Program-made: the position numbers and the translations under genes | NCBI GenBank assembly: GCA_022486705.1 | Contig: JAKVKC010000007.1 | Coordinates: 1 to 64,000, forward strand | Length of the DNA stretch: 64,000 nt | Reading direction: 5' to 3' | Source of the DNA: Solobacterium sp. | GTDB lineage: Bacteria > Bacillota_I > Bacilli_A > Erysipelotrichales > Erysipelotrichaceae | In this document: piece after piece, positions 47,846 to 56,495 of the stretch | Numbering within the stretch: the stretch's first letter is position 1 | Layout: each line of letters starts with the position of its first letter | Notes under the pieces: generated by a model | What the model saw: the letters and a program-made list of their open reading frames with translations, nothing else | Database searches by the model: none | Told to the model about the DNA's origin: nothing

Positions 47846-48702
47846 ATCGCCAGCATTCTTTTGAAAATGAGAAGCCAACTCTGTATCTTGTGCCGACACC
47901 GATCGGCAATCTCAATGAGATGACGCCAAGAGCACTGGATGTTTTAAAGAGCGTTGATATCATTGCCTGCGAAGATACACGTACCAGCGGACAGATGCTG
48001 AAGCATTTTGAGATTGAGAGCCGACTGATCGCCTATCATAACTTCAATGAAGAAGCCAGTACAAATGGGATCCTGGAATTGCTTTCCGAAGGAAAGAATA
48101 TTGCTTTGATCTCAGATGCAGGATATCCTCTGATCAATGATCCAGGGCAGCGGGTCGTCGCGGCGGCATCCGGCGCAGGATACAATGTTGTGCCGGTATC
48201 GGGCGCCAGTGCTTTCTTAAATGCGATCGTGGCTTCCGGCCTTGTCGTACAGCCATTCATTTTCATTGGCTTTCTGCCGCAGCAGCATACGGATCGATTG
48301 AAAAAGCTGAGAGAATACAAAGCGTATCCGATGACAATGGTCTTCTATGAATCTCCGCATCGCATTGATAAATGTCTGCAGGACTGCCTGGATGTCTTCG
48401 GCGATCGGCAGATGGTATTGGCCCGTGAGCTGACGAAGATCCATGAAGAATTTCTGCGCGGAAAGATCTCAGAGATCCTGCCTGTTCTGCCGGAACTCAA
48501 GGGAGAAATGGTCATTGTAATTGATGGCAATCATGAAGATTATTCAAAGGATGTCGATATGAATGCCATTATGGATATGGTGCAGGCGTCGATCGATGCA
48601 GGGCTTTCGACCAAAGATGCAATTAAGGAAGCAGCGGCGCGCACGGGCATTGCTAAGAACCGGATCTATGATGAATATCACAGCCGGTCAGGTGAGTGCT
48701 GA
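47842..48702 (+). CDS. rsmI: 16S rRNA 2'-O-methyltransferase RsmI
   Basis: A 286-residue SAM-dependent enzyme that methylates the ribose of C1402 in 16S rRNA. Family motifs: LYLVPTPIGNLNEMTPRA, ACEDTRTSGQML, LISDAGYPLINDPG and PVSGASAFLNAIVASGL, followed by FYESPHRI. The tetrapyrrole-methylase fold fills residues 10-230. It overlaps ricT by 4 bases and the next gene by 1. Confidence 0.96.
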   Translation: MNRQHSFENEKPTLYLVPTPIGNLNEMTPRALDVLKSVDIIACEDTRTSGQMLKHFEIESRLIAYHNFNEEASTNGILELLSEGKNIALISDAGYPLINDPGQRVVAAASGAGYNVVPVSGASAFLNAIVASGLVVQPFIFIGFLPQQHTDRLKKLREYKAYPMTMVFYESPHRIDKCLQDCLDVFGDRQMVLARELTKIHEEFLRGKISEILPVLPELKGEMVIVIDGNHEDYSKDVDMNAIMDMVQASIDAGLSTKDAIKEAAARTGIAKNRIYDEYHSRSGEC

Positions 48703-49424
48703 TGTTCATCAGTGCAGCAATGAGCACCATCGCGATCTATCTTGCGGCAGCTGTACTTCCTGCAGTGTTCCTGCTGCGGTATATCTATCGGCTGGATGCG
48801 GCGGAGAAAGAACCGCCGGAATTATTAGTGAAACTGATCTTTGGCGGTTTGGGCGCTGCAGTATGCGCACTGATCCTGGAAGAAGTATTTGATTGGCTGA
48901 TCGGTATCGCAGGCGGCTCCAGTGATGAATTGATCTCGGTATTGATCGAAGCTGGTTCAGTCGCTGTGATCGAAGAATCGATGAAGTATATTTTCTTAAA
49001 GAGGATCAGCTGGAATCATCCAGCGTTCAACTATCGCTTCGATGGCATGGTGTATGCGATCTTTGTATCACTTGGCTTTGCCATCCTGGAGAATATTCTC
49101 TATGTCTTCTTCAATGGCGGACTGTATGTGGCACTGACCAGAGCGGTCCTGTCGATCCCAGCGCATATGTGCTTTGCGGCATATATGGGCATCTATTACG
49201 GCCGGGCCAAAGTCTGCGAGCATGCTCATGATCCAAGCGGTGTGAGATGGAATCTGGCAGCCGGACTGCTGATGGCGATCCTGTTCCACATGATCTATGA
49301 CGGAACACTGATGTTCGATACGGGAACATCCCTGCTGCTGTTCATAGCTGTCGTTGCCTTTATGTATCTGTATGTATTTCATCGGATCAAGCGCGAAGCA
49401 GCGCAGGATGAATCTATTGATTAA
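48702..49424 (+). CDS. PrsW family intramembrane metalloprotease
   Basis: A 240-residue membrane protein. I use the ATG at 48702, 5 bases after AGGTGAG and sharing one base with the rsmI stop; an in-frame GTG lies at 48696. About seven hydrophobic segments are seen. The catalytic family motifs are present: IEESMKY (EExxK), then DGMVYA with GFAILENILY, and His residues in HMCFAAYMG and LFHMIYDG. In Bacillus PrsW makes the first cut in anti-sigma factor RsiW. It ends the tmk operon here. The substrate is unknown. Confidence 0.9.
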   Translation: MFISAAMSTIAIYLAAAVLPAVFLLRYIYRLDAAEKEPPELLVKLIFGGLGAAVCALILEEVFDWLIGIAGGSSDELISVLIEAGSVAVIEESMKYIFLKRISWNHPAFNYRFDGMVYAIFVSLGFAILENILYVFFNGGLYVALTRAVLSIPAHMCFAAYMGIYYGRAKVCEHAHDPSGVRWNLAAGLLMAILFHMIYDGTLMFDTGTSLLLFIAVVAFMYLYVFHRIKREAAQDESID

Positions 49425-49731
49425 TGAAGTGGAACTAACTGTGCAGTAAACTCAATTATTTGGAAAAGGAAGTTTAAGAATATAATGCTAAGACTTGATT
49501 CCATTGGCAGGAATTAAGCCTTTTAGTTTGCCTTGATTTCGGTATTGTAATAGAGAGTGTGTTCTTTTAAAAATCATCAAGAATATTGAATATTAAGGGG
49601 AGTATTCCCAATACTTAGTACAATCGGCACAATAATGAGAGCGTTTGAAATGTATGTTTAACTTGTATTCAATATTCATACTGGATTATACTTTTCAAAG
49701 TGTTTTGATTATTTCAGTAGGAGGGGGACCT
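49425..49731 (+). other. A+T-rich intergenic region before the surface-protein gene
   Basis: 307 bases without a supported gene. It contains a perfect 11-base inverted repeat (GAATATTGAAT 49581-49591; ATTCAATATTC 49667-49677) and the small palindrome AGTATT-CCC-AATACT (49601-49615). A weak promoter candidate is TTGTAT (49663-49668), 18 bases, TATACT (49687-49692), 40 bases before the start. No terminator for the tmk operon is evident. Confidence 0.4.
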
Positions 49732-52700
49732 ATGATGAGTCTGAAGTTAAAAAAACAAATAATTAAATTTATTTCAATCTTGATGTCCTTTATATGCATG
49801 TTAAGTCTTGTTCAACCAGTATATGCAGACTATAAAGGTACTCAGAAATTAACAGGAGGAACAGCACCAAACAATCTGTATGTGTTTAATACTCTTTCTG
49901 TATTTACTGGCGATACGGAGAGTATATATGCAAGTTATGATTCTGGTGAAACATTTGATACAAATACTATATTCACTGTAATAAGCGGAACAGAAAATAT
50001 TCAAGTAGATAAAAGTGTTGATACAAATAATCAAGCTTCTGTTAAAGGCTTAAAAGCGGGTACATCTGTTATCAGGGTAACTTCCGCCGCGAATACTAAA
50101 TTAAAAGAAGATGTGACTGTAACGGTGAAAGATGAGGAAGCATATTCTTCGCTTAGCTTTTCAAGTGAATCCACCACATTTAAAATAAATAACAGTGAGT
50201 TCCCAAGCTATCAATCTATAAGTTATACAGCAAACCCAGAAAATGTGAATCCGCAGAGATTGACAGCTGTTTCGTCAGATCCAAGTGTTTTTGATGCTGC
50301 AGGGCTTGGAAAAGATACTCTTTCCATAAAGCTTTATAAAGAAGGTACTGCTACCTTGACGTTGACCGCTGAAAATGGTGTCTCTGCATCTATTATAGTT
50401 ACAATACAAGCGGGAAATTATGCAACGGGGTTTAAAGACGATATTCCACATGAAATAACAATTAAACCAAATGAAAAGTTTAATCTAGATAAATTCGTAA
50501 GAAATTATGTTGAACCTGAGAATGCTTCAAGTACGGAAAATATTAAATATGCTGTCAATTCATCATATTGTTCTGCAGAAATCAGTGACGGAATATTGGA
50601 TGATAAAAAACAAGAAACATTCAGCGTCTCAGCAACACTTGAAAATGGCGTGTGCACATTCATACAAGTATATGTTCATGATGATGTGACGGCATTTGAT
50701 TTTGATATTAAAGAATACTCAATTGCTTCGGATGTAAAATATTTATCTCTTTTGAATCATCTTAAAACCAATTTGTCATCGGCTTCATTAATTGACCCTA
50801 ACAAAATCACTTGGACATCTTCAAAAGAGAATATTGCTAAAATAAAGAATACTAATGGATTACTTGAGATCTTATCTACAGGAGATACCACAATCACAGC
50901 TAAATATAGGGACTTTTCAGCTTCTATGGTGCTTCATGTTATAAACAGAAAGGCTCCAACGTCAATGAGTGTTCTTGGAACATATAAACCATTGGAATTA
51001 TACGTGGGACAAGTTTATAACCTTTATGTTAATTATGATGGGAGTTATGAATTAACGGATCGTCATACTGATTACACACTATCAAAGGGAAATGACATTG
51101 TCAGTATTGATTCTAAAAGTGATAGCAATTCAGTCAACATTACAGCCAATAAAGTGGGTGAAGCTGAGCTTAAAGTGACGTCGCGAGCAAACAAAGAACT
51201 GAGTAAAACTGTAAAAATAACGGTTAAAGAAGCTGAACAAGCAACGGCAATAAAGTTTCGGAAATCTGAGATTACGACAACAATTCGCAATGGTAAAGTA
51301 CCAAACAACGTCTCATATTTAGATTATTCATTAGAACCTTATGCAGCATCTTATACAACATCTCTTAAGTATTCATTTGATGGACCAAATGATTTGTTAG
51401 ATCAAGTGAAGGTTCAGAACGGCTTTGTTTATTATCGCCCAATCAAAGCTGGAACGACAAATTTGGTGCTTACAGCAGATAATGGCATTTCTTCTTCAGT
51501 GAAAATCACGGTATTGGATGGTGATTATGCCACAGGATTTGTTGATCAGAGCTCTATTCAGAAGAAACTGAAGGTTGGCGAAACACTTGATTTTGGTGCT
51601 AATATAAGATCCGGACTTGCTCCTGCTGATGAAAAATGCAGCGATGAAAAAATAACGTATTCTATATCGAACAATGGTGTGGGATCTGTTGATGAAAATG
51701 GAATAGTTACAGCATTAAAAGAAGGAACCAGTACAGTTACTGCATCCTTAATGAACGGTCAGACAAAATCGGCAACAATCTATGTGCTGAATGATGTCAT
51801 TGATCTGGAGTTCACAAAAGAGGAAACGTCTATTGCGCTAGATGAACTATATCCAAATGTTGATTCTTTATTGCGTTTGAATAAATCACTAAATGCATAT
51901 AATATACCTCGTGATGAGCTGAAATGGTCTTCTTCTAATGATGATGTTGCCTCTTTTGTGACGCAGAATGGTTATACTTCGTTCAGATTGAATGGCATAG
52001 GAGATACTACAATCTCAGCAACATATGAAGGTCATACAGCCTCCATGATTCTTCATGTAGTGGACAGAAAGATGCCAACTGCTTTTGACTGTGCTGATCA
52101 ACTGATATTGGATGTTGGTTCTTGTAAAGGACTGAGCAGTGTCTATGAAGATAATGACATCGTGTACAGTGATACAGCTTATGAAGTGATTTCAGGGTCA
52201 GATACTATCAATGTTACGCAGGAAAGTAAAGATAATATCGTTGTTGAAGGAATTAAAGCAGGTGAGGCAGAAATTCGACTCACTTCCAAATACAATAAGA
52301 ACTTAAGTAAAGTTGTCAAAGTTACAGTTGAGTCATGGGATACACAAACCACTAAAATCAGATTGATAGATAAAACAGGAAAAAACATTCTGGAAAACTC
52401 TTCTGCAGATGTGATTTTTGGTGCTAAATATGATTTGGAATACAGTAGTAAAACAAGTGGCAAACAAATACCGAATATATTTGAAAATATGCAGAATTCT
52501 ACCTATTTGCAAACACTAGGCGGAGGCGGTGTACAGGAACTGGATTATGCGTATGCAATAGAGTATTTTGTTCCGTCAAAGCTAGGCGCAGAAACTATAA
52601 AAATAGATGACGATCATTCTATAACATTAAATATTGTTTCTGAACCAATCAAGGTGAAGGATGTTGTTTACAACAATGTGGCTGACATTGATACGAATCT

Positions 52701-53322
52701 TGTAAATCAGTGCGTAAGAACAATGTCAGATAATATCAGCAATGTATCTACTTTATCAGAAAAGAACACGGCAGTCTCGTCAATTCTTGCTTCGAATCCA
52801 TTGCAAAGCAATACTGTTGTAGATGCTAAGGGAAATGAAACACAAGAATTAGTTGAAGCAGATACAAATTTCTTTACAGGTACTACAGTGCAACTGAAAG
52901 ATACAACATTGCAATATGATATTACTCCTACTGTGAGTATTCATCAAAAAGATAGTAAAATTGAGCTGGGCTCCACAGAATTAAATGTAACAGAGAATAT
53001 AAATATGGCATTGCCGGTTGGGAATCTTGTAGATTCATCTGTAACTCAAGTCTATGTGGTTCATGAAAAAAAGGATGGAACGAAGATTGTAAAAATAGGC
53101 ATTGTTAACAATGGAATAGTAACTTTTGAAAACTCAGATGGTTTTTCTACTTTTGAAATTTTACTGAATACAGAAGTGAACGATGAAAACACGAAACAGC
53201 TTATGAACACTGCTGATACAGGAGATGCAACAAATACTCTTTTCTACGCTGGAATAATGCTTATCAGTTCATTCTCCGCATTGGCAATTGTTTTGTTTAA
53301 GAAAAAGTATCTTCAGAATTAG
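49732..53322 (+). CDS. large secreted surface protein with Ig-like (Big2-type) repeats
   Basis: A 1196-residue exported protein. Start at 49732 after AGGAGG; a signal peptide ends at VYA32. Nine Ig-like domains follow, arranged as a-b-c-d, a-b-c-d, a, with a super-repeat of about 372 residues (domain a begins near 33, 406 and 778; matching pairs GNYATGF/GDYATGF and INRKAPT/VDRKMPT). Residues about 867-1160 are unique. The end reads TADTGD, a hydrophobic helix (about 1170-1188) and FKKKYLQN, resembling a sortase signal without the LP. The DNA is clearly more A+T-rich than its neighbours. It is probably an adhesin or wall-bound structural protein, acquired or fast-evolving. Confidence 0.85.
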   Translation: MMSLKLKKQIIKFISILMSFICMLSLVQPVYADYKGTQKLTGGTAPNNLYVFNTLSVFTGDTESIYASYDSGETFDTNTIFTVISGTENIQVDKSVDTNNQASVKGLKAGTSVIRVTSAANTKLKEDVTVTVKDEEAYSSLSFSSESTTFKINNSEFPSYQSISYTANPENVNPQRLTAVSSDPSVFDAAGLGKDTLSIKLYKEGTATLTLTAENGVSASIIVTIQAGNYATGFKDDIPHEITIKPNEKFNLDKFVRNYVEPENASSTENIKYAVNSSYCSAEISDGILDDKKQETFSVSATLENGVCTFIQVYVHDDVTAFDFDIKEYSIASDVKYLSLLNHLKTNLSSASLIDPNKITWTSSKENIAKIKNTNGLLEILSTGDTTITAKYRDFSASMVLHVINRKAPTSMSVLGTYKPLELYVGQVYNLYVNYDGSYELTDRHTDYTLSKGNDIVSIDSKSDSNSVNITANKVGEAELKVTSRANKELSKTVKITVKEAEQATAIKFRKSEITTTIRNGKVPNNVSYLDYSLEPYAASYTTSLKYSFDGPNDLLDQVKVQNGFVYYRPIKAGTTNLVLTADNGISSSVKITVLDGDYATGFVDQSSIQKKLKVGETLDFGANIRSGLAPADEKCSDEKITYSISNNGVGSVDENGIVTALKEGTSTVTASLMNGQTKSATIYVLNDVIDLEFTKEETSIALDELYPNVDSLLRLNKSLNAYNIPRDELKWSSSNDDVASFVTQNGYTSFRLNGIGDTTISATYEGHTASMILHVVDRKMPTAFDCADQLILDVGSCKGLSSVYEDNDIVYSDTAYEVISGSDTINVTQESKDNIVVEGIKAGEAEIRLTSKYNKNLSKVVKVTVESWDTQTTKIRLIDKTGKNILENSSADVIFGAKYDLEYSSKTSGKQIPNIFENMQNSTYLQTLGGGGVQELDYAYAIEYFVPSKLGAETIKIDDDHSITLNIVSEPIKVKDVVYNNVADIDTNLVNQCVRTMSDNISNVSTLSEKNTAVSSILASNPLQSNTVVDAKGNETQELVEADTNFFTGTTVQLKDTTLQYDITPTVSIHQKDSKIELGSTELNVTENINMALPVGNLVDSSVTQVYVVHEKKDGTKIVKIGIVNNGIVTFENSDGFSTFEILLNTEVNDENTKQLMNTADTGDATNTLFYAGIMLISSFSALAIVLFKKKYLQN

Positions 53323-53452: not shown

Positions 53453-54028
53453 ATGTTTGACAATGCACAGTTAGATAAAATGATTATCTTTGCATTAATT
53501 GGCATCGTTGTGATCCTGGTCGTTGCAGTATTCGTTTTGGCGGTAAAAAGAAACATCTATTATGTGGATGAGAATGGCAATGAGATCAAGCCGAATAAGA
53601 AATTATCTGCCAATGGACAGCCTGTCCATCCAGCTCCGCAGAAGATGACCCCGCTGAAGGCAGATCCGCTTCCGCAGGACTATGACAAAGCTGAACCGCT
53701 GGAGGTAAAGGGTTCAGCAGTTACGGGTGCGCTTGTTTCTGTCACGATCAATGGTGCAACATCGGAATCTGAGATCACCAGTTTCCCATGCTTAATGGGA
53801 AGAGAGACTTCATCCTGCAATCTGGTCATTTCAGAACCAGCTGTATCAAGAAGACATGCTCAGATCATCGAAGAGGATGGAAATCTGTATTTGGAAGATG
53901 TTTCTGAACATAATGGCACCTTTATCAATGGCATCAAGCTTCCGCCTTTAGGCAGAGCACGGATCCATGAAGGGGATCAGATCAGTCTTGGCAGAGCGGA
54001 GATTGATGTACAGAAGCTTCTGTATTAA
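53453..54028 (+). CDS. membrane-anchored FHA domain protein
   Basis: A 191-residue protein with an N-terminal membrane helix (about residues 8-30), a Pro- and Lys-rich linker (about 40-90) and a C-terminal FHA domain (about 95-188). The phospho-Thr-binding residues are in place: LMGRETSSCNL (Arg), VSRRHAQI (Ser and His) and NGTFINGIKL (Asn). FHA domains dock phosphothreonine proteins, usually products of PknB-type kinases. No kinase gene is in the window. It is followed by a terminator with a GAAA loop and then by the zinc-ribbon protein. Confidence 0.9.
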   Translation: MFDNAQLDKMIIFALIGIVVILVVAVFVLAVKRNIYYVDENGNEIKPNKKLSANGQPVHPAPQKMTPLKADPLPQDYDKAEPLEVKGSAVTGALVSVTINGATSESEITSFPCLMGRETSSCNLVISEPAVSRRHAQIIEEDGNLYLEDVSEHNGTFINGIKLPPLGRARIHEGDQISLGRAEIDVQKLLY

Positions 54029-54163: not shown

Positions 54164-55933
54164 ATGAAATGTATCCATTGCGGTCATGAAAACAAAGAAG
54201 GTTCAAAGTTCTGCACATACTGCGGAGCTCCTTTGACGGTACCATCAGCTGCTTCTTTGGATGCAGCATCTTTTATAGAACTGGCTGAGGCATATACCGG
54301 CAATTTAGCTGCCGCAAAAAAGATCGTTTCTGCCAATGCCAATGATATCCGGACGATATCTGAAGCATGTACTGCATGGATCAGAGCGAAAGATCCTGTT
54401 CTGTTCCAGAATGCTGAGCCAAGTGAAGCGAACAGTCCTTTGCTGGATGCGATAGGAAAGACAGAAGATACACTGCGGGATCTGGATTATGAAGAACGCA
54501 TCTGTGTACTGATGCATTGCTTAGAAAAGATGGAACCGCAGGCGATCGCGAATATTTTAAATATTCCGGAGGATGCAGTCCGGTATTATCTGCAGTGTGC
54601 GTATGAAAAAACACATCCGACAAAGATCCAGACACCGATCAATCATCCGGATACAAAGAAGAAAGCAGAACGCAGAAAGAGACATGTCCGTCATAGAGAC
54701 AATAAGGAAGAAACAGAGAACAGTCCAAAGTTTCTGAAGAATATTACCATGCAGACAAAGATCATTGTGGCGGTGATCGCAGCTGTGATCATAGGAAGCT
54801 TCCTTGGTATCAAGAACTATGCACATAATGAATATCTCAGGGGCACGGCATTGCTGGCTGAAGAAAAATATGAGGAAGCAGCTGAACCATTGCTGAATGC
54901 CAAGAGATACGGCGGCAGTGAAGATGCGGGATTGAAGCTGGGAGATGTGTACTATGCCCAAGGAGACTATACGAAGGCACTGCAGGAATATCTTGCCTGC
55001 TCGAGCAGTCAGAAAGGCGTGAAAGATGCGCTGATCCGTACATATGAGAAACTGGCAGATGCGTCTGTAACTGACCGCAACTATGGTACGGCGGCAGAGT
55101 ATCTGCAGAAGCAGTATGATCTGGATGAGGATGATCATACAAATATTCGTCTGCAGGCTGTGCAGAATAATGGAACTTATACAGATGAGGATGGAAATAT
55201 CTTCAATGCATGGGGAGACCCTGTTAAGCTGTGTGCGGTGAAGAAGGGCAAGACTCTGTATCAGGTAGACCTGGAATACAATGATGACCGTACATTGAAA
55301 GCAATGAAGGAATATGTATCAAACTATACAAGCAAAGTGAATTACAATCAGTTCGCGGATGATCAGAGGATCGAAGCGTCCTGGATCCTGAAGGATGATG
55401 GGACTGTGACATATTCGGTAGAAGCAGCTTCTTATGATGAACATGACAATCCTCTGCTGCAGACAGTAACAACTTCTTCCTCTATCAAGAAGACAAATTA
55501 CAGCTATACCTATGAAGAAGATCAGATCGCTTCTGCATCTGTCAGATCAAGTACAGGAACTGTCAAAGCAGAATATACCTATAAGGATGATCAGCTGGTC
55601 GAGATCAAGAATGACGATGGGACATCCACGGTCTATAAATATGACCGCAAAGGGAATCTGGTCCATGAAACAGAAACAGAGGAAAATGGCGATATTATCA
55701 CAGAGACTGCTTATGAATATGATGACAATGGCAGGGTCAAAGAAAAGACGGTCAAGAGAAATAAAACAGACAGCATTCTGCCGTATGCGGACAATGAAGA
55801 TATCCTCTATACATATACTGAACAGGGAGATCCATATACATTGATCATCCGGAACAATAACAGTCAGGTGGCCAAAGGCTATTATATTGATGGTACAGGA
55901 TGGATCATTCTGTACGATACTGCCGAGGAATGA
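54164..55933 (+). CDS. zinc-ribbon / sigma4-like HTH / TM / TPR / YD-repeat protein
   Basis: A 589-residue single-pass protein of unusual build. A zinc ribbon (Cys3, Cys6, Cys17, Cys20) is followed by a helical region whose part at about 107-148 matches the sigma-70 region 4 pattern (LDYEERICVLM, then AIANILNIPEDAV and CAYEKT). A basic stretch precedes one membrane helix (about 199-217). Beyond it come TPR-like helices (about 225-330; LLAEEKYEEAAEPLLNAK), then YD/RHS-type beta repeats (about 445-550; YTYKDDQLVEI, YKYDRKGNLVHE, YEYDDNGRVKEK). The positive charge before the helix suggests the N-terminal part is cytoplasmic. A weak ribosome site and a candidate promoter (TTTCAA, 17 bases, GATAAT) precede it. 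Function unknown. Confidence 0.82.
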   Translation: MKCIHCGHENKEGSKFCTYCGAPLTVPSAASLDAASFIELAEAYTGNLAAAKKIVSANANDIRTISEACTAWIRAKDPVLFQNAEPSEANSPLLDAIGKTEDTLRDLDYEERICVLMHCLEKMEPQAIANILNIPEDAVRYYLQCAYEKTHPTKIQTPINHPDTKKKAERRKRHVRHRDNKEETENSPKFLKNITMQTKIIVAVIAAVIIGSFLGIKNYAHNEYLRGTALLAEEKYEEAAEPLLNAKRYGGSEDAGLKLGDVYYAQGDYTKALQEYLACSSSQKGVKDALIRTYEKLADASVTDRNYGTAAEYLQKQYDLDEDDHTNIRLQAVQNNGTYTDEDGNIFNAWGDPVKLCAVKKGKTLYQVDLEYNDDRTLKAMKEYVSNYTSKVNYNQFADDQRIEASWILKDDGTVTYSVEAASYDEHDNPLLQTVTTSSSIKKTNYSYTYEEDQIASASVRSSTGTVKAEYTYKDDQLVEIKNDDGTSTVYKYDRKGNLVHETETEENGDIITETAYEYDDNGRVKEKTVKRNKTDSILPYADNEDILYTYTEQGDPYTLIIRNNNSQVAKGYYIDGTGWIILYDTAEE

Positions 55934-55943
55934 AGGAGAACAG

Positions 55944-56495
55944 ATGAAGAAAATCATGAAATATATGCTGGCTGGCATTGCCGCATGCATACTGACAGCC
56001 TGCACCAGCTATAAAACGATCACAGGAAATATCCACGAAAGTGTAGCGACGATGTTCTACCAGTTCACGGTAGAGGACTGCTACAGTACGCTGGCCATTG
56101 GGGAACATAAGCCAGAGGATGGAAAAATGTTCGTTGTTGTTTCGGTATCTATTGAAAATACATACAAAGGAAAGCTGTCACTGACGGATCATCACTTCCA
56201 GCTGCAGACACTGAGCAGTTCTGATGATGAGGAGGACAGTGAGAGCACGGCATCCGCATCCAGCGATATCAGCTATGTACTGCCGCTGTCAGGATCCTAT
56301 CTTGCGGACGAACTTCCTAGCAGCTATGACCTTGAACAGTCGGAGACAAAAAAAGGAACGCTTGTCTTTGAAATGCCGGCCACGGAGACGGTCTTCAACT
56401 TCTGCTCAGCAGATTATTTCAACTATGGCAGCAGTACTTCTTCCCCATCGACCGGGAATACATATTTTGTACAGATCACACCGGAGGCTCGCTGA
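55944..56495 (+). CDS. lipoprotein, DUF4352-like
   Basis: A 183-residue exported lipoprotein; lipobox LTAC gives Cys20. Start at 55944 after AAGGAG; upstream in-frame codons lie in the previous gene. The body (about 55-180) has the pattern of DUF4352-type immunoglobulin-like domains (MFVVVSVSIENTYKG, then GTLVFEMPAT). A Ser/Ala/acidic loop interrupts it near residues 95-110. It begins 10 bases after the zinc-ribbon gene, so the two are co-transcribed and may cooperate at the cell surface. Confidence 0.8.
   Translation: MKKIMKYMLAGIAACILTACTSYKTITGNIHESVATMFYQFTVEDCYSTLAIGEHKPEDGKMFVVVSVSIENTYKGKLSLTDHHFQLQTLSSSDDEEDSESTASASSDISYVLPLSGSYLADELPSSYDLEQSETKKGTLVFEMPATETVFNFCSADYFNYGSSTSSPSTGNTYFVQITPEAR

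Follow-up and report, generated by a model that had tools for sequence, protein, structure and literature searches.

A single-pass membrane protein of Solobacterium sp. with a decayed, ECF sigma-like head, encoded beside prsW and FHA genes

The locus and the architecture of the protein

The DNA that was analysed, called the window below, is a stretch of 64,000 nucleotides from Solobacterium sp. (assembly GCA_022486705.1, contig JAKVKC010000007.1, positions 1-64,000, forward strand). An unbroken open reading frame at 54164-55933 (+) encodes a protein of 589 residues, which comprises, in this order, a zinc ribbon, a sigma2-sigma4-like head, one transmembrane (TM) helix, a set of TPR-like helices and a β meander of the YD/RHS type. 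Residues 30-152 are referred to here as the pseudo-sigma head. The neighbouring genes and the parts of the protein are located as follows.

48696..49424, + strand: prsW, a PrsW family intramembrane protease (Pfam PrsW-protease, E 1e-35)
53453..54028, + strand: FHA gene, upstream, with an N-terminal TM segment and an FHA domain (Pfam FHA, E 1.2e-18)
54167..54235, + strand: N-terminal zinc ribbon, residues 2-24 (Pfam Zn_Ribbon_1, E 1.1e-8)
54251..54619, + strand: pseudo-ECF-sigma head, sigma2-like plus sigma4-like, residues 30-152 (AlphaFold2, Foldseek, VIA-align, profile-profile alignment)
54260..54418, + strand: shortened helices resembling sigma region 2, lacking region 2.3, residues 33-85 (hhalign, joint alignment)
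54458..54619, + strand: sigma4-like helix-turn-helix (HTH), residues 99-152 (Pfam Sigma70_r4_2, E 8.9e-6; dN/dS 0.024)
54620..54748, + strand: basic, disordered juxtamembrane linker, residues 153-195 (pLDDT <50 at 154-194)
54755..54811, + strand: single TM helix, residues 198-216 (hydropathy 2.39, the sole such segment)
54833..55165, + strand: TPR-like helical hairpins, residues 224-334, predicted to lie outside (weak TPR matches, AlphaFold2 helices)
55175..55915, + strand: YD/RHS-type β meander, residues 338-584, predicted to lie outside (RHS_repeat, YD_repeat, modelled β strands)
55953..56495, + strand: downstream gene, often conserved alongside, for a DUF4352 protein with a lipoprotein-like start (Pfam DUF4352, E 2e-7)

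An earlier note on this DNA had described a zinc ribbon, a sigma4-like HTH, a single TM helix, TPR-like helices and YD repeats in one protein, and Pfam, NCBIfam, hydropathy and AlphaFold2 all agree with that description. It had also known no named family with this order of domains; indeed, the whole protein is not covered by any Pfam or NCBIfam family.

Hydropathy reveals no TM helix in the protein other than that at about 198-216. There are nine Lys and Arg residues in the 30 positions preceding this helix and three in the 30 positions following it. Because of this bias and the absence of other TM helices, the N-terminus is predicted to be cytoplasmic and residues 220-589 are predicted to be outside. 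The bias is slight in several relatives (e.g. 5 versus 4). Cys is absent from residue 153 to residue 197, and therefore the linker contains no zinc anti-sigma motif. Likewise, no zinc-finger anti-sigma domain is matched by Pfam between the sigma4-like part and the TM helix.

The TPR models match residues 224-322 with an E-value of 3e-4 at best, below the Pfam cut-offs, and TPR_16 matches 15 of the 19 relatives. Further along the chain, RHS_repeat (Pfam) is found at 475-505 with an E-value of 8.2e-6, above its cut-off, and the NCBIfam YD repeat with an E-value of 2.3e-6. The invariant residues of the family alignment are mostly within this outer part. The protein shares the YD-type repeat and β hairpins with Rhs/YD-repeat proteins, but its repeat region has only about 250 residues, and the full model matches known structures in Foldseek at TM-scores of about 0.1-0.2, so that a Rhs shell is not claimed. 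A polymorphic toxin of the Rhs/YD kind was rejected because the YD repeats run to the C-terminus and neither Pfam nor NCBIfam finds a toxin domain.

The head has the fold of an ECF sigma factor

The match of Sigma70_r4_2 to residues 102-147 (E 8.9e-6, 25.7 bits) lies exactly at the curated Pfam cut-off. The same model is matched independently by 11 relatives, which puts the assignment beyond chance. A profile of the 13 heads matches SigL and SigW among solved structures with E-values of 2-3e-4, and the same search aligns a weak additional segment to regions 2.1-2.2 in the correct order. When the profile of the 13 heads is aligned with that of 14 ECF sigmas from the same order, all 126 columns are matched with a probability of 99.2, the accompanying E-value being that of a single comparison and not of a database search. 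On its own, the sigma2 half gives a modest hhalign score of 24.3-24.8 (probability 25-39%), to be compared with 19.3 for the best of 100 column shuffles and 9.7 for the reversed profile.

The isolated head is modelled by AlphaFold2 with a pLDDT of 93.4 and a pTM of 0.87. ECF sigmas and PhyR top the Foldseek results for this model, none of them at an E-value of 0.001 or better. VIA-align superimposes the model onto SigG1 with a Z-score of 10.7 over 108 residues at 3.7 Å, and onto SigJ (9.6), SigW (9.5), RpoE with NepR (8.8) and PhyR (8.5), in all cases across the whole model, although Z-scores near 10 can occur by chance in helical bundles.

Because sequence, order and structure agree, the head is assigned the sigma2-sigma4 fold that is characteristic of ECF sigmas. 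Judged by sequence and model, the stretch from residue 30 to 152 represents an entire ECF sigma that has undergone decay. The sigma4 assignment of the earlier note is thus sustained by the structural comparison of residues 30-152, in which Foldseek and VIA-align return sigma-type matches. What that note overlooked in the N-terminal half is the sigma2-like part, residues ~33-85, in front of the HTH. A lone sigma4 HTH was rejected, as the helices preceding it align to sigma2.

Promoter-reading elements are lost, but the gene is constrained

The joint alignment shows a gap of about 15-19 residues in all 13 heads, past the region 2.2 helix and ahead of the final helix of sigma2. Region 2.3, which in ECF sigmas is responsible for -10 recognition and melting, is consequently absent from every head. 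In place of the Asp that is conserved in region 2.2, five heads have Glu and eight have Lys, Arg or Gln, and the Gln beside it is kept in one head of 13.

The sigma4-like part has lost most of its equivalents of the SigW residues that contact the -35 element, namely Thr168, Lys170, Thr171, Arg172 and Arg175 (PMC6713349). Arg172 is the telling position because Arg175 varies among ECF sigmas as well. An Arg is found there in 14/14 ECF sigmas of the order and in 0/13 heads, which have Tyr, Leu or Trp instead. The equivalents of Arg175 and Thr171 are not found in any head and that of Thr168 is found in one, but the Lys170 position is basic in 9/13. As a set, the residues that contact the -35 element in ECF sigmas are not preserved in the heads. 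The mean net charge of the sigma4-like part is -4.9 in the heads versus -0.9 in the ECF sigmas of the order.

Despite these losses, the gene is under purifying selection, as judged from codon comparison with the 92%-identical protein of genome G063. The dN/dS ratio is 0.07 for the whole gene, 0.024 for the sigma4-like part and 0.14 for the sigma2-like part, values that derive from this single pair, in which each segment has few changes. Given the losses, the head is unlikely to read promoters.

Gene neighbourhood

The usual gene order in the 18 other loci is tmk-holB-ricT-rsmI-prsW-FHA-pseudo-sigma-head gene-(DUF4352)-M16, where M16 is a tentative label based on an HxxEH motif and similarity between loci. 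The FHA gene is adjacent to the pseudo-sigma-head gene in 17 of these loci, and prsW is part of the cluster in 15; one of the three loci without prsW, L081, starts at a contig end. In the window, a gene for a Big_2-repeat protein (49645-53322, 1225 aa, C-terminal TM) stands between prsW and the FHA gene. L081 likewise has a Big_2 gene ahead of its FHA gene, and the other loci do not have it at that place.

PrsW makes the site-1 cut in the anti-sigma RsiW of Bacillus subtilis (PMC3498285), and PrsW proteins fused to FHA or Zn-ribbon domains have been interpreted as signalling peptidases (PMC3482391). No paper that joins PrsW and Erysipelotrichaceae was found in the literature search. The FHA gene is present in 35 of the 70 genomes of the genus, including all 19 that encode the pseudo-sigma-head protein. 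PrsW is present in 61/70, mostly in genomes without that protein. Where the protein is absent the gene order is kept, and the slot after the FHA gene is empty or otherwise filled. In L100, L101, L103 and L105 the slot is occupied by a different zinc-ribbon protein, in some cases of a small membrane type. The 589-residue protein is probably part of a PrsW/FHA signalling unit. Nevertheless, gene order around the cluster is conserved in general, and common descent alone may account for the proximity of PrsW and FHA.

The host genome encodes a site-2-type protease of the M50 family. It also has a Ser/Thr kinase with repeats that look PASTA-like by eye, alongside a phosphatase gene. Two sigma factors of the primary type are present (L118 in G000:C5 and L119 in G000:C4), one of which has a long Lys/Ala-rich N-terminal extension. 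No other ECF sigma is found by the Sigma70_r4_2 or Sigma70_r2 models in this genome, which is 92% complete; its second Sigma70_r4_2 match, L049, was rejected as an ECF sigma, being a different kind of protein.

Relatives and the origin of the head

The protein occurs in 19 of the 70 genomes of the genus. Profile searches of 315 genomes of the order and of 392 genomes drawn evenly from the phylum found no full-length relative outside the genus, the weak matches there being to the TPR part only. The nearest named record is from a metagenome-assembled genome of an Erysipelotrichaceae bacterium (91% identity). The sigma-like head is present in 13 members, five of which also have the zinc ribbon; in the other six the zinc ribbon stands alone ahead of the TM helix, so that one or the other module is present in every member. 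When the tree is built from the TM helix and the outer part, the six zinc-only proteins group as a single clade (support 100/100). Under a midpoint root this would read as a single loss of the head, though several branches are long.

The order contains ECF sigmas that are tethered to the membrane, have both region 2 and region 4 intact and carry diverse outer domains. Examples of such intact TM-fused proteins are L064, L066, L070 (with a DUF3160 outer domain), L079, L136, L137, L141 and G012:C60; the last contig contains four matches inside about 10 kb, which are apparently tandem paralogs. Single-pass proteins with half-decayed ECF heads are found in the same genus as the pseudo-sigma-head family (L065, L076, L078, L127, L128, L129, L130, L132, L133 and L134). 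Their Arg172 position is mostly hydrophobic, and the outer domain of L065 is an SH3 domain. The sigma2 profile scores 84-134 bits with the intact tethered proteins, which were outside its building set, about 13-57 bits with most half-decayed heads and about 0 bits with the pseudo-sigma-head family. An LF motif that follows the last sigma2 helix is invariant in the 13 heads. It resembles the [LM]FS[DE] of most tethered ECF sigmas and is absent from most soluble ones. These comparisons suggest that, among the tethered ECF sigmas, the pseudo-sigma-head family is the branch in which decay has gone furthest.

Comparison with known systems

ECF sigmas fused to TM parts have been described in groups ECF48, ECF52 (for example SCO4117), ECF53 and ECF243, the last represented by IutY (PMC8999054). 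They are regarded as latent sigma factors and are found mostly in Actinobacteria; IutY, activated by proteolysis, is the sole experimentally shown case (PMC8999054). As in these groups, sigma2 and sigma4 are on the cytoplasmic, N-terminal side of the 589-residue protein and are followed by a TM helix and an outer region; in the known groups proteolytic control is expected or shown. Unlike them, the protein lacks region 2.3 and the -35 contacts, begins with a zinc ribbon, and belongs to a host of the Erysipelotrichaceae with PrsW and FHA as neighbours. It also does not have the zinc-finger anti-sigma domain that ECF48, ECF52 and ECF53 carry between sigma4 and the TM helix. The intact tethered ECF sigmas of the order (L064, L066, L070 and L079) share with it an ECF head, one TM helix, an outer domain and an LF-type motif, but they keep regions 2 and 4 and Arg172 and have other outer domains.

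The pairing with prsW resembles that of RsiW and SigW in Bacillus subtilis, where prsW is likewise linked to a single-pass signalling protein. There, however, the PrsW target is an anti-sigma and the sigma is soluble, whereas the 589-residue protein is linked to PrsW by gene neighbourhood. The sigma-like domain of PhyR is a precedent for a sigma fold used in protein binding and is similarly compact. PhyR, however, is soluble and has a receiver domain; the protein described here has no receiver match in Pfam or NCBIfam, and no ECF/anti-sigma pair was found for it.

A possible function of the protein

With the fold, the ancestry, the losses, the purifying selection and the conserved prsW-FHA neighbourhood in place, there is an even chance that the protein is a single-pass membrane receptor, whose pseudo-ECF-sigma cytoplasmic head acts by protein contacts and which is cut by PrsW in response to an envelope signal. 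The outer TPR-like helices and YD-type β sheet would face out and sense the signal. The head, a derivative of tethered ECF sigmas found in this bacterial family, would be freed or removed when PrsW, perhaps followed by a site-2-type protease, cuts the protein. It would bind other proteins, such as the FHA partner, RNA polymerase or a regulator, instead of promoter DNA. The direct envelope-to-gene switch that the earlier note proposed holds up in part: the ECF-sigma ancestry and the neighbouring prsW support a signalling role, but direct promoter switching is weakened by the deletion of region 2.3 and the replacement of the -35 contact residues in 13/13 homologs, as well as by the headless clade of six members.

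Another explanation is that the outer part is what matters, the cytoplasmic modules being exchangeable anchors or leftovers and PrsW and FHA an inherited gene order. The zinc ribbon and the sigma-like head are each absent from some members (the six zinc-only proteins being one clade), the invariant residues are mostly outer, and the gene order persists without the protein. Against this, the sigma4-like part is strongly constrained (at the dN/dS given above, from one pair), no member lacks both cytoplasmic modules, and the protein occurs only alongside the FHA gene. This explanation is unlikely, though it deserves some weight.

It is improbable, too, that the protein is a working, membrane-latent ECF sigma, whose head is released by proteolysis, joins RNA polymerase and turns genes on, as in IutY. 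Such a function would agree with the ECF fold and ancestry, the intact tethered ECF sigmas in the same order and genus, the nearby prsW and the M50 protease in the genome, the proteolytic activation of IutY (PMC8999054) and the basic residue at the Lys170 position in 9/13 heads. It is contradicted by the loss of region 2.3 and of the Arg172, Thr171 and Arg175 equivalents from all 13 heads, by the mostly lost Asp and Gln of region 2.2 with a sigma2 profile score of about 0 bits, and by the clade that has no head. A PhyR-like mimic, the head of which would bind an anti-sigma factor and so free a true ECF sigma, is very doubtful: full-length structural matches to PhyR and to RpoE with NepR, matches of two members to PhyR_sigma-like (best E 4e-4) and a compact head model like the anti-sigma-bound forms favor it, but the host genome (92% complete) yielded no other ECF sigma, no adjoining anti-sigma gene was seen and there is no receiver domain.

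Fusions of ECF sigmas to membrane parts are known already (PMC8999054). A search of literature that includes few subscription journals found no description of the decayed form, of its series of graded relatives or of its association with PrsW and FHA. Within one genus, tethered ECF heads differ in their degree of decay, some being intact, some half-decayed and some fully decayed, and purifying selection persists even in the family that has decayed furthest. A wider proposal, that this lineage turned tethered ECF sigmas into a class of pseudo-sigma-head receptors signalling by protein contacts under PrsW control, is put forward tentatively, as a possibility that falls short of even. The graded decay combined with purifying selection makes the use of the sigma fold as a protein-binding receptor arm testable, and PrsW and FHA, as recurring neighbours, are candidate partners. 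If the receptor interpretation is true, a sigma fold would have found a second use as a receptor's cytoplasmic arm.
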